In this document: positions 32,401 to 36,401 of the stretch, piece by piece
Position numbering within the stretch: position 1 is the first letter of the stretch
Layout: each line of letters opens with the position of its first letter
From: Salinivirgaceae bacterium
Lineage (GTDB): Bacteria; Bacteroidota; Bacteroidia; Bacteroidales; SZUA-534
Length of the DNA stretch: 36,401 nucleotides
Assembly: GCA_030620515.1 (NCBI GenBank)
Contig: JAUXEM010000012.1
Coordinates: 1 to 36,401, forward strand
Direction of reading: 5' to 3'
The notes under the pieces: generated by a model
Seen by the model: the letters and a program-made list of their open reading frames with translations, nothing else
Databases searched by the model: none
Told to the model about the DNA's origin: nothing
Translations under genes and position numbers: made by a program

Positions 32401-32513
32401 TCGATGAAATATCTAGTCCAGGATCCATTAAACTTAGACTTCGTTCATTAGTTGAATCGTTAAAAATAAAAGCTCAAAATGTTCAAACTAAAAACCAAAC
32501 AGCACTAGTATGA
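29499..32513 (+). CDS. Acyl-CoA dehydratase activase, duplicated BadF/HgdC ATPase domains plus DUF2229-like region
   Basis: A 1004-residue protein with two tandem BadF/BadG/BcrA/BcrD-HgdC ATPase domains. Domain 1 (about 5-262): LGVDIGSTTAKVV, DIGGEDAKLI (101-110), CAGGTGAYID (Cys126), RCGVF (Cys165). Domain 2 (about 321-585): IGIDSGSTTTKIVV, DIGGQDIKAI, ACSSGCGSF (Cys448, Cys452), RCTVF (Cys487). In HgdC two cysteines of this kind hold a [4Fe-4S] cluster at the dimer interface and feed ATP-driven electrons to a 2-hydroxyacyl-CoA dehydratase. A Cys cluster follows (Cys611, 614, 618, 631, 637), then a DUF2229-like part from about 672. The true dehydratase substrate is unknown. The stop overlaps the next gene's ATG by 4 nt. 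Confidence 0.9.
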   Translation: METLKLGVDIGSTTAKVVVCNSVGKILHAEYVRHNTRIQETLLSLLNEIDIKFADSHFQLAFSGSAAMGIAETTGALFIQEIIAAATLVKKNFKSAKSLIDIGGEDAKLILFKDSKTPDIRMNGSCAGGTGAYIDQMAALLNVSIHELNSQAWKSTKTYPIASRCGVFAKTDVQNLVSRKINIADIAASIFEAVAGQIVNTLARGSSIEPEILFCGGPLTYISYLSEAFCKLLKISKQQIIIPKHAELFTALGTVFSIDPNTKPLKISDFIQTLKTTQGIYSESNRLDSLFANKEETINWELQRHEIVIPERKPTSGETCFIGIDSGSTTTKIVVVEPEGKMLYSYYKNNNGKPLETAIEGLKEFTELKHIDISTLIIGKAAVTGYGEELIKSALRIDYGLVETVAHFIAAKHIEPSVTFILDIGGQDIKAIFVQNNTISNIEINEACSSGCGSFIEGFANNLGYSRSDFSNLALQADAPYDLGTRCTVFMNSKVKQALREGATIPDLSAGLAYSVIKNCLNKVLRIKSASNIGNNIVVQGGTFKNKAVFRSLEVLSGKKVVVSNKPEMMGAYGAALHAIDLNQSADVFSSFVGFQNLDNIIKYDTNISTCKGCTNSCQITTYKFAHQGLCFSGNKCEKYFTNNSKAIKHGLNIFDYKRQILFDRPVKNETSKKGIIGIPRILNMYENYPFWHTLFSNCGFQVKISDESTYKIYKEGIGALMSDNICFPAKLAHGHIVNLIKRKVERIFFPFVIYEKNEFQNTDNSYNCPIVTGYSEVLKNTTFLDNSADIPFDSPAINFNNSDLLKKACWKYCKNLGVAKSSFTKAFAAALREQQNYKSLLQIENQAILSNALITNKLVIMLASRPYHTDKLIHQQVSQILSDLGVNVINEDIILGEKNEGFDSYHSVSQWNYTNRMLQSAYWASKQKFVMGFIQLNSFGCGPDSFIIDEISDLSKKSGLSYALIRIDEISSPGSIKLRLRSLVESLKIKAQNVQTKNQTALV

Positions 32514-33769
32514 GTGAATTAGCTATTTTTACCGAAGCCGATAAATCGAGAACTATTCTATTGCCTTGGCTATCGGAATACTATTCACCATTTGCACCTG
32601 TTATTGGGTCTTTAATTGGCTATAAAATTGAAAATTTACCTCCTTCAAATAATCTTTCAATTGATTTAGGATTAGAATATGCGAATAACGAGATATGCTA
32701 CCCTGCCACCTTAATAGTTGGTGATGTTATTCAGGCTTTAAAAAGCAATAAATACAAACCCGAAGAAATTGCCATTGGCATAACACAAACAGGTGGCCAA
32801 TGTAGAGCTACCAACTATATTTCAATAATTAAACGGGCAATGGAACATGCCGGCTTTAGTAATATTCCCATTGTTGGTATTGCACCTTCAGGCTCAATGT
32901 TTAATGAGCAACCTGGTTTTAAACCAAATTGGCTGAAAATTATTAAGCCAGTATTTCAAGCTATACTATTCTGCGATAGCATCTCGCGCCTGTATCATGC
33001 AACTGCTTCTCGCGAACAAGGTAGTATCAATTCAAAAAAATTAAGAGATAAATACATACAGCTTGGAGCTGAATTAGTGGGAAAGAAAAAAGGAAGTAAA
33101 CTACTACCATTATTAGAAAAAGCTATTGATGAATTTAATGAAATTCCTATTATAAATTCGAATATTAAAACAGTAGGTATTGTTGGTGAGATATTTATAA
33201 AATACAATTCTTTTGGAAAATTCCATATTACTGACTGGCTGATTGAAAATCAGATTGAAGTGGTTTTACCTCCATTAATGGAATTTTTTATGCAAGCTTT
33301 TGTGAATTCTAAAGTTTTAGAGAAAGAATACATAAACAAGAAAAATAGCTTTGGATTTGTAAGTGACATACTCAAATTATTAGCAAATAAGCATATTGCA
33401 AAATATGAGAAAACTCTAACAAAATTTAAATACTACCGCCCCTTTCACAATATAAACCACTCAGCAAAACTTGCATCTGAAATACTTAGCTTAAACAACC
33501 AATACGGCGAAGGTTGGCTTATACCTGCCGAAATTGCTGCCTATTCAAAGCAAAACATTAATCATGTTATTTGTATTCAGCCTTTTGGTTGTATAGCTAA
33601 TCATATTGTAGGTAAAGGCATGGAAATGAAGATAAAAAGCCTTTATCCTGATATGAACCTTTTGTACCTCGATTTTGATTCAGGAATGAGCAAGGTTAAT
33701 ATATTAAACAGGTTACATTTTTTAATTCAAAACATTAAATTACCTCGGGGCAAGCCCACGAGGCATTAA
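32510..33769 (+). CDS. 2-hydroxyacyl-CoA dehydratase-related protein (partner of the activase)
   Basis: A 419-residue protein related to the C-terminal part of the large activase/dehydratase-related proteins. Seen: EYANNEICYPATLIVGDVIQALK (about 60-82), TQTGGQCRATNY (about 91-102, with conserved Cys), IVGIAPSG, and a C-terminal CIQPFGCIANHI block. These cysteines are likely Fe-S ligands. Translationally coupled to the preceding gene by a 4-nt overlap (ATGA). In many Bacteroidota and Clostridia the two parts are, from memory, one polypeptide of about 1400 residues. The last nine residues (LPRGKPTRH) and the stop are encoded inside a REP-like palindrome (33743-33763), so the original C-terminus was probably replaced. 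Catalytic role unproven. Confidence 0.82.
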   Translation: MSELAIFTEADKSRTILLPWLSEYYSPFAPVIGSLIGYKIENLPPSNNLSIDLGLEYANNEICYPATLIVGDVIQALKSNKYKPEEIAIGITQTGGQCRATNYISIIKRAMEHAGFSNIPIVGIAPSGSMFNEQPGFKPNWLKIIKPVFQAILFCDSISRLYHATASREQGSINSKKLRDKYIQLGAELVGKKKGSKLLPLLEKAIDEFNEIPIINSNIKTVGIVGEIFIKYNSFGKFHITDWLIENQIEVVLPPLMEFFMQAFVNSKVLEKEYINKKNSFGFVSDILKLLANKHIAKYEKTLTKFKYYRPFHNINHSAKLASEILSLNNQYGEGWLIPAEIAAYSKQNINHVICIQPFGCIANHIVGKGMEMKIKSLYPDMNLLYLDFDSGMSKVNILNRLHFLIQNIKLPRGKPTRH

Positions 33770-33857
33770 AATTCAAAAAAACAAATTTCAAATTTCAAAA
33801 AAAAGACGAGGCAAGCCTCGGGGAACCTGCCCGTCGTGTAACTTTGGCAGGCGGGTT
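33743..33857. repeat. Cluster of three REP-like palindromes
   Basis: Three GC-rich hairpins sit in otherwise AT-rich DNA: 33743-33763 (CCTCGGGGC...GCCCACGAGG, one bulged base), 33807-33820 (perfect CGAGGC-AA-GCCTCG), and 33824-33857 (AACCTGCC...GGCAGG...GTT). The first and second share the CGAGGC/GCCTCG core in a related form. Between them is an A-rich stretch with the short direct repeat AAATTTC. The first palindrome supplies the end and stop codon of the upstream gene. These look like dispersed extragenic repeats; the cluster could also act as a transcription barrier. Confidence 0.6.
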
Positions 33858-33924
33858 AAACCCAAAAGAGATTAAATACTAACTATGCATTTAAAAGAAA
33901 ACCAGTACTAAAAAAAATTAAACT

Positions 33925-34401
33925 ATGAACAAAATTTGGCTGATAACTCTAATAATGATTTCTGTTTTTGCATATTCGTGCAAAACACAACAAAAATCCG
34001 AAAAACCAAGTACCGAACCAATTACAGTAATTAAAGCAACACAAGAACATTGGCATGCTGGTGTTCGCGATGGTGGTAGTGGCACCGATTATTTTATAAA
34101 ATTATTGGTTAATAGCAGCAAAACTATCTCGTTCGATTCTTTATGGGTTGCAAATACACGCCTAAAAATTAGGATAGTGAAAAACGGCTCTGTCCTTTTA
34201 AACCAAACAGAGATTACTAAAGGCGATACTATTACCTTACGTAGCACTTTATTAAAACGTGGCGATTCAAAACCCGAACCCATTGTAAGCCCTATGTCAA
34301 AAGGTGAATTACAAGTTCTAATTCAATATTATTTGGATAAAAAAGCAAATTATTTATTGACTCCCGATTTAGAAGAAATAAAAGGTCCTTTGCGTCCTTA
34401 A
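33925..34401 (+). CDS. Hypothetical lipoprotein
   Basis: A 158-residue protein with a lipoprotein signal peptide, MNKIWLITLIMISVFAYSC (lipobox AYSC, Cys19), followed by a charged linker and one compact beta-rich domain (HWHAGVRDGGSGTDYFIKLL, about 44-63, and later L-x-I-x-I-V-K-N-G-S strands). I do not recognise a family. The HAGVRDGGSGTDY stretch is the most distinctive feature. It is preceded by the REP-like cluster and followed by the decayed restriction-modification locus. No terminator was found after it; the 207-nt gap to the HTH-methyltransferase gene is AT-rich and otherwise without recognised features. Confidence 0.75.
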   Translation: MNKIWLITLIMISVFAYSCKTQQKSEKPSTEPITVIKATQEHWHAGVRDGGSGTDYFIKLLVNSSKTISFDSLWVANTRLKIRIVKNGSVLLNQTEITKGDTITLRSTLLKRGDSKPEPIVSPMSKGELQVLIQYYLDKKANYLLTPDLEEIKGPLRP

Positions 34402-34608: not shown

Positions 34609-35769
34609 ATGAGCGAATATTTATCTCTTTCAGAAACAGCAGAAATAGTTGGCAAGAGCAAACAAACTCTTCGAAGATGGGACAATGAGGGCATACTAAA
34701 TGCTGTTAGAGAACCTGGTTCTGAATATCGTGTTTACAGAAGAAAAGATGTCCAAACGTTTCTTGGAGAATTCTACAAGGATAATATTGAAGAAACTTCC
34801 AATTTTATAGAACCAGAACATTCTTATTCGGTTCTATAATTATTTGCAGGAGCTGGTGGTTTAGCTGTTGGTCTTGAAAAATCTGGACTAAAGTGTGTAG
34901 CTTTAAATGAAATTGATAAATGGGCATGCAATACTTTACGCAAAAACCGTCCAAATTGGAATGTATTAGAAGGTGACATAAAAGATTATAATTTTTCTGA
35001 AAATAAAAAACAAGTCGATGTTATCACAGGTGGTTTTCCTTGTCAAGCATTTAGTTATGCTGGGAAAAAATTAGGTTTAAAAGATGCTAGAGGAACCTTG
35101 TTTTATGAATTTGCAAGGGTTGTTCAGGAAGTTTCCCCTGCAATCTGTATTGGTGAAAATGTTAGAGGATTGCTTAGTCATGAAAAAGGAAAAACCTTAC
35201 AGGGAATGATTTCTATTCTTGATGAAATAGGTTACAATGTTGTTCCTGTACAGGTACTAAAAGCAATAAATTATAAAGTTCCGCAAAAAAGAGAACGCTT
35301 GATTCTTGTTGGCATCAGAAAGGATATTGATGTTAAATACGAATACCCAAAACCATCTAAGAAGATATAAAACCTATCCGATGCCCTTAAAAAAGGTGTG
35401 TTATTTAATAAAAATGTTCCAAAATCTGGCGGAGCTAAATATCCAGAATCAAAAAAGAAAGTTCTTGATTTAGTACCACCTAAAGGCTATTGGCGTGATT
35501 TACCTCTAGAAACTCAAAAAGAATATATGGGTGGCAGTTTCTATCTTGGTGGCGGTAAAACAGGAATGGCTCGTAGAATTGGTTGGGATGAACCTAGCTT
35601 AACATTAACTTGTAGTCTTGCTCAAAAACAAACTGAAAGATGCCATCCTGATGAAACGCGTCCATTTACTGTTCGTGAATACGCTAGAGTACAAACATTT
35701 CCTGATGAATGGACTTTTGATGGTTCTATTGCTCAGCAATACAAACAAATTGGGAATGCCGTACCTTAA
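34609..35769 (+). pseudogene. HTH-C5-cytosine DNA methyltransferase interrupted by three in-frame TAA codons
   Basis: One frame of 387 codons from ATG 34609. Residues 1-76 are a MerR/excisionase-like HTH (YLSLSETAEIVGKSKQTLRRWDNEG...RVYRRKDVQTFL). TAA at 34837-34839 falls where an LFAGAGG methyltransferase normally has an ordinary residue (SVL-stop-LFAGAGGLAVGLE). The methyltransferase then shows motif I, motif IV with the catalytic Cys (GGFPCQAFSYAGK), ENVRGLL (VI) and QKRERLILVGIR (VIII). A second TAA (35368-35370) sits between PSKKI and NLSDALKKG. Motif X (QQYKQIGNAVP) ends at a third TAA (35767-35769). No frameshift is visible. Substitutions such as GAA or CAA to TAA explain the first two. 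HTH-methyltransferase fusions of type II systems are known. An active enzyme is not expected unless stops are read through. Confidence 0.85.
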
Positions 35770-35791
35770 ATTCAATTAGTAAATGCAAATT

Positions 35792-36401
35792 TTAAGAAAA
35801 AGGGGCGAGGTTAATTATTATATTGAAAAAGTTATTCTGAAATTTTTTGGCTCTAAAAAAGCCATAAAAAATTTTGGAAATAACTTTTCCTCCAAATAAA
35901 AATAAGTTTTTTACTCTAAAAAGTGTTCTATCTGACTCTTCTATCGAATTCTTAATTTCAGATATCGCAGAGTTTCCTTCTTTACTTTCTAATTTATTAA
36001 CATCTGCTAAAAAATCAGAAATAGCAAGTGGCAGAGCTTTATATAATGCAAAGAATGCATCCTCTTGTCCTGTCAATAAAGAATAAAACTTATCGCCTGA
36101 AATTTTGATGACCCTACTATGACTATATTCTTTCCCATTAATATCACCTGACCAACTGTCACAAAAGCTATTCTTTGCTAAAATTTGTACCCAATAACAT
36201 TTTGCTTTCTTATAAGTATCAGCATAGCGTGCAAGTTTTTGGAATAAACTCTCTGCTGCACTCAGCAATTCCGAAAAATAATAACACAAATAGTATCCTC
36301 TGATATATAGTTGATTACGAGTATTTGAAAAATGTAATTTTCTTGCTATTTTGCCAGTAATTCCTCGTAATATTTAACGCTACTATTAAGTGCTCGTAAT
36401 C
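35792..36401 (-). pseudogene. Type II restriction endonuclease-like gene, frameshifted, 5' end beyond right edge
   Basis: Convergent with the methyltransferase. An open frame from 36373 down to 35792 encodes NSFCDSWSGDINGKEYSHSR and then VIKISGDKFYSLLTGQEDAF and ALYKALPLAISDFL, which from memory resemble the Eco47II/Sau96I (GGNCC-type) endonuclease family; this is not verified. The frame contains no ATG at all, only a TTG at 36289. Upstream, another frame from the window edge reads LRALNSSVKYYEELLAK before TAG at 36346-36348 or nearby. A single base lost from the AAAA run there would join it to IARKLHFSNTRNQLYIRGYY. So the gene is probably frameshifted. The tail past about 35885 crosses a hairpin and may be read-through. 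Confidence 0.5.
35831..35884. terminator. Long imperfect hairpin, possible bidirectional terminator of the R-M pair
   Basis: An imperfect palindrome of 54 nt: GTTATT (35831-35836) with AATAAC (35879-35884), AAATTTTTT and GGCT with AGCC and AAAAAATTT, a 2-nt bulge and a short A-rich loop. It lies between the C-terminal ends of two convergent genes, the usual place for a shared terminator. It is inside the last 31 codons or so of the minus-strand frame, which argues that the original endonuclease ended before it. Confidence 0.5.

Follow-up and report, generated by a model that had tools for sequence, protein, structure and literature searches.

Whether the gene for a C5 cytosine DNA methyltransferase fused to a helix-turn-helix (HTH) domain is dead, read through its stop codons or wrongly sequenced is the question raised by three TAA codons in one frame. 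An earlier note on this DNA had proposed recent loss by nonsense substitutions, possibly tolerated since the facing endonuclease is dead, and had placed stop-codon read-through or suppression second. The window, i.e., the whole stretch of DNA that was analysed, is contig C155 (36,401 bases) of a 319-contig draft genome of 3.93 Mb that is 96.5% complete. The locus is very probably a fairly recently inactivated Eco47II-type type II restriction-modification (R-M) module, made up of an HTH-fused C5 methyltransferase and a convergent PF09553 endonuclease. Both genes are damaged by insertion sequences, and the methyltransferase gene would in addition have taken two nonsense substitutions. The features are presented in Table 1.

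Table 1. Features of the dismantled module (window coordinates)
Feature	Position	Strand	Evidence
N-terminal HTH (MerR/HTH_17-like) domain and linker, 76 codons, still open	34609..34836	+	PF13411 1e-7 and PF12728 8.5e-7, both above cut-offs
TAA 1, putative nonsense change at invariant Glu, lead-in of motif I (ELFAGAGG)	34837..34839	+	E in 86/86 relatives
C5 cytosine methyltransferase domain, FPCQ at 35035-35046, homology ends at GNAVP	34840..35766	+	PF00145, TIGR00675
TAA 2, putative nonsense change at Tyr/Phe position	35368..35370	+	Y in 81, F in 5 of 86 relatives
End (remnant) of IS30-family element, starts with TAA 3, replaces 3' ends of both genes	35767..35925	+	Likeness to G001:C317
C-terminal half of Eco47II-type endonuclease gene (PF09553 profile 117-201)	35918..36262	-	88.7% identity to L036
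8-bp target duplication GCTGCACT, second copy on C212 beside the other endonuclease half	36255..36262	.	Exact duplication
End of insertion sequence A, terminal repeat CAGCAATTCCGAAAA	36263..36354	.	Full 1855-bp copy at G000:C40:19697-21551
End of second repeated element B, after the first 92 bases of A; the contig breaks here	36355..36401	.	Repeats in other contigs

Relatives Used for Comparison

Of 99 genomes searched, among them the window's own, 50 gave matches, and the best 80 of 279 loci confirmed in a contig scan were kept. The alignment holds 86 loci (L003-L008 and L032-L111) with methyltransferases 76-89% identical to that of the window; the more distant L009 (54-55% identical) is not among them, nor are L010-L031, which are weaker or partial loci. 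One of the 86 rows is probably a duplicate, L003 and L033 having contigs of equal length and a tree distance of almost zero. Most of the records are titled Bacteroidota or subgroups of it. Two methyltransferases that are 79% identical to the window's come from metagenome bins labelled outside Bacteroidota, L088 (titled Phycisphaerales) and L103 (Limnohabitans). These copies are due either to horizontal transfer or to contamination of the bins; the module may have spread horizontally.

The Methyltransferase Gene

The methyltransferase frame runs from 34609 on the plus strand for 386 codons to 35766 and contains in-frame TAA codons at 34837 and 35368. Profile searches of the product were run with these two codons masked as X. 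The masked product matches PF00145 (C5 cytosine DNA methyltransferase; 8.6e-78) over positions 2-311 of the 324-position profile. This match, together with those to MerR_1 and HTH_17 and relatives up to 89% identical, argues that the frame is not there by chance. No second match to the masked protein (E <= 0.001) was found in the window's own 96.5%-complete genome. As the earlier note had stated, there is no frameshift inside the homologous part.

The residue that stands at each stop in the relatives was obtained from the alignment, as the note had advised. The first TAA falls where the note had put one, at the invariant glutamate ahead of motif I, and the second replaces tyrosine or phenylalanine; the motif numbers (I to X) are labels that we assume to fit this protein. 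A single substitution separates each codon from codons that occur in relatives, and the two, as read from one draft assembly, appear to be nonsense changes. The window protein differs at 3 of 208 near-invariant columns, one of them the stop at residue 77 and the others residues 39 and 337; leave-one-out scoring of relatives gave 0 to 5 such differences.

Homologues that naturally begin and end at the TAA positions, which the note had named as evidence against its reading, were sought among the relatives and not found, none of the 86 having an internal stop. A split-subunit enzyme, of which M.AquI is an example, was considered and rejected on the same ground; the first in-frame ATG, GTG or TTG after the first TAA, at 35098, also lies beyond PCQ (35038-35046).

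Loss of the 3' End

The relatives' methyltransferases are 409-422 residues long, longer than that of the window (L080 is cut by a contig end). Past GNAVP, complete relatives have a further 22-35 residues, 52 of the 86 rows having 25; in L080 the contig ends after 14, and L007, with GNAFP, was not counted. This tail, the far part of motif X, most commonly starts VNLG.E.GYS and is gone in the window. The coverage of the NCBIfam dcm profile TIGR00675 agrees with the loss: the masked window protein spans positions 2-318 of 329, and the relative L036 reaches 324. The claim that all catalytic motifs including X are intact therefore fails, and, with two nonsense codons and the tail lost after GNAVP, the reading frame is not open from motif I through the whole of motif X.

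Homology to L036 breaks off at 35766 and starts again at 35918, within the opposite-strand gene. The 151 bases between these positions have no second match in the window's own genome, and 35767-35917 was for that reason considered as unrelated filler; this reading was dropped after the search of relatives and the finding of an IS30 neighbour in G001. Bases 35765-35925 are 86% identical to G001:C317, where the stretch ends 85 bases upstream of an IS30-family transposase (NF033563, 7.3e-64). The assignment of 35767-35925 to this family is made from one end only, the other end being absent from the window and the G001 contig ending inside the transposase gene. The remnant has a hairpin with 22-nt arms (35827-35848 and 35867-35888), and its first 34 nt are found again at 7 sites of G057. 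Its last eight bases, 35918-35925, agree with the element and with the endonuclease gene alike.

The TAA at 35767 is thus best read as the start of the IS30-family end and not as a substitution. The 387-codon frame with three interruptions that the earlier note had described keeps its TAA codons and is shortened to 386 codons, the third TAA being the first codon past the homology.

The Facing Endonuclease Gene

The minus-strand piece at 35918-36262 corresponds to residues 135-249 of the 266-residue L036 frame and has no stops or frameshifts. The N-terminal half is found at C212:87-452 (PF09553 profile 1-121). No single gene gives a complete PF09553 match, the halves being split by an insertion at 36263. 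The facing endonuclease, which the note had called dead, is indeed encoded by a broken gene, split with an exact 8-bp duplication and with its C-terminus replaced by the IS30 remnant.

Insertion sequence A, which lies between the halves, carries the 15-nt terminal repeat at both ends. The full element (G000:C40:19697-21551, equal to L158:3198-5052) is 1855 bp long with a 373-aa open reading frame. Its family was sought with DDE transposase models, which gave sub-threshold matches (PF13701 1.4e-4, PF01609 3.5e-3), and in NCBIfam, which gave none. A short, MITE-like derivative of 179 bp occurs in C111. Element B was apparently inserted in insertion sequence A. Its 47 nt are identical in five other contigs, four of which stop 70 bases on, and 98% identical in a sixth; C272 matches 36343-36401 at 95%. 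A frameshift of the endonuclease near 36345 had been suspected from the reading frames and was discarded, this stretch consisting of the two repeated elements and not of endonuclease.

For the endonuclease, columns were scored against the 47 relatives with a match to each half. The C-terminal half has no change at 49 near-invariant columns, and the N-terminal half has two at 52: I in place of T83 (47/47 relatives have T) and Y in place of D104 (46/47 have D, one has N). The conserved GYD...DIK residues, presumably of the PD-(D/E)XK class, are accordingly incomplete, and from this pattern D104 would be the first catalytic acid. At least two such changes are carried by 9 of the 47 relatives (leave-one-out), so two are not unusual and D104Y adds little to the case for endonuclease death.

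C155 and C212 would be adjacent contigs, as suggested by the endonuclease gene divided between them and by the target duplication. The module would then sit between the open reading frame at 33925-34401 and a MarR/RND efflux cluster. Bases 33735-33885 form a dispersed repeat rich in palindromes (CTCGGGGCAAGCCCACGAGG...), with 46 other matches in the genome, some of them neighbouring pieces. It extends into the end of the open reading frame at 32510-33769 (C-terminus LPRGKPTRH), and one copy lies on C212 between the MarR and efflux genes.

Timing of the Loss

Pairwise dN/dS between the window methyltransferase and 11 near relatives is 0.058-0.100, and the 19 pairs of relatives printed gave 0.048-0.090. 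Because the window values resemble those of the relatives, most of the divergence would have arisen under selection, and the death of the methyltransferase appears fairly recent. With five single outgroups, changes on the window lineage were not significantly different from those on its sister L032 (e.g., 51 S:18 N vs 66 S:23 N, p = 1.0; lowest p 0.241). Sets of three outgroups leaned to more nonsynonymous change in the window (S:N of 15:12 vs 32:15, p = 0.32; 18:15 vs 34:12, p = 0.094). Private residues, too, are most numerous in the window gene when seven near sequences are compared (10 of 310, against 1-9 of 301-309 in the other six). Both this and the nonsynonymous lean are signs that the death may not be very recent.

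Explanations of the Internal Stops

The course of events may have been as follows. An insertion sequence split the endonuclease gene, and the 3' ends of the two genes gave way to an IS30-family element. With no active endonuclease to guard against, two nonsense substitutions could then have been tolerated in the methyltransferase, which would have lost its activity. The proposal of the earlier note survives in this form for two of its three TAA codons and for the broken endonuclease; its third TAA is the border of an insertion sequence, and the enzyme that it took to be otherwise intact lacks part of motif X.

It is improbable that both internal TAAs arose from faulty sequencing or assembly and that the methyltransferase lost its tail alone, to the IS30-family element. 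The codons do rest on one draft assembly, of 319 contigs, and this contig ends in repeats; in PMC3488263, moreover, some methyltransferase "pseudogenes" turned out to be errors of sequencing. Against this, two substitutions would have to be wrong independently, at distances of 1562 and 1031 bases from the contig end, in a contig with many long open reading frames, and the structural lesions, which are independent of single base calls, already break both genes.

Read-through or suppression of the stops, giving a low, regulated level of methyltransferase, can be given hardly any credence. The low dN/dS and the 205 of 208 near-invariant columns that are unchanged would fit it. The C-terminal tail of the relatives would nonetheless be missing even if UAA were read as sense, the two TAAs replace different residues (E vs Y/F), and TAA terminates 22 of 26 selected main open reading frames of the window. 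A UUA anticodon was sought in the tRNA set and found in none of the 30 hits read of 31, a set that is incomplete, with Ile, Val, Lys and Asp tRNAs missing. Restart of translation after the first TAA would come too late to include PCQ. Very unlikely, too, is retention of the 76-codon HTH piece, freed by the first TAA, as a free-standing DNA-binding regulator after the death of the R-M module. That piece is still open, and the N-terminal 71 residues of M.SsoII regulate transcription of the R-M genes (PMC3978073); in the window, residue 39 of this domain is no longer the N that 85 of 86 relatives have, and the likely target, the endonuclease gene, is broken.

Inactivation of the whole module by insertion sequences and nonsense substitutions thus stands as the preferred reading. 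The locus shows a facing R-M pair dismantled together, with mobile elements having hit the nuclease gene and both 3' ends, and with stops in the methyltransferase gene. A false lead for stop-codon recoding is removed, and one clear example of ordinary gene decay, which poses no new question, is added to known patterns.

Comparison with Known Systems

The module resembles Eco47II-type type II R-M systems in having an endonuclease of the same PF09553 family and a convergent C5 methyltransferase partner, and an endonuclease frame matching both halves lies within 1500 bases downstream at 47 of 87 relative loci. It differs from them in that both of its genes are broken. An Eco47II homologue is linked to GGNCC in PMC10305163, and GGNCC would be the specificity of the module. 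Avoidance of GGNCC as a sign of an active system gave no signal in the window (31 sites vs 27.9 expected).

HTH-fused C5 methyltransferases that regulate their own R-M genes are known, M.SsoII being the example described in PMC3978073. In the window protein as in M.SsoII, the methyltransferase domain is preceded by an N-terminal HTH region about 71-76 residues long. Unlike the SsoII region, which according to that paper was modelled on the phage 434 repressor, the HTH of the window matches MerR_1/HTH_17, and the methyltransferase part is cut off by the first TAA.

A survey of methyltransferase pseudogenes that carry premature stops and lie next to an endonuclease gene is given in PMC3488263, which warns that some are sequencing errors. 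The window gene is like these in having premature stops and adjoining an endonuclease gene. The 74 systems discussed in that paper have a full-length endonuclease, whereas the endonuclease of the window is broken as well, and the paradox posed by such systems is thereby removed.
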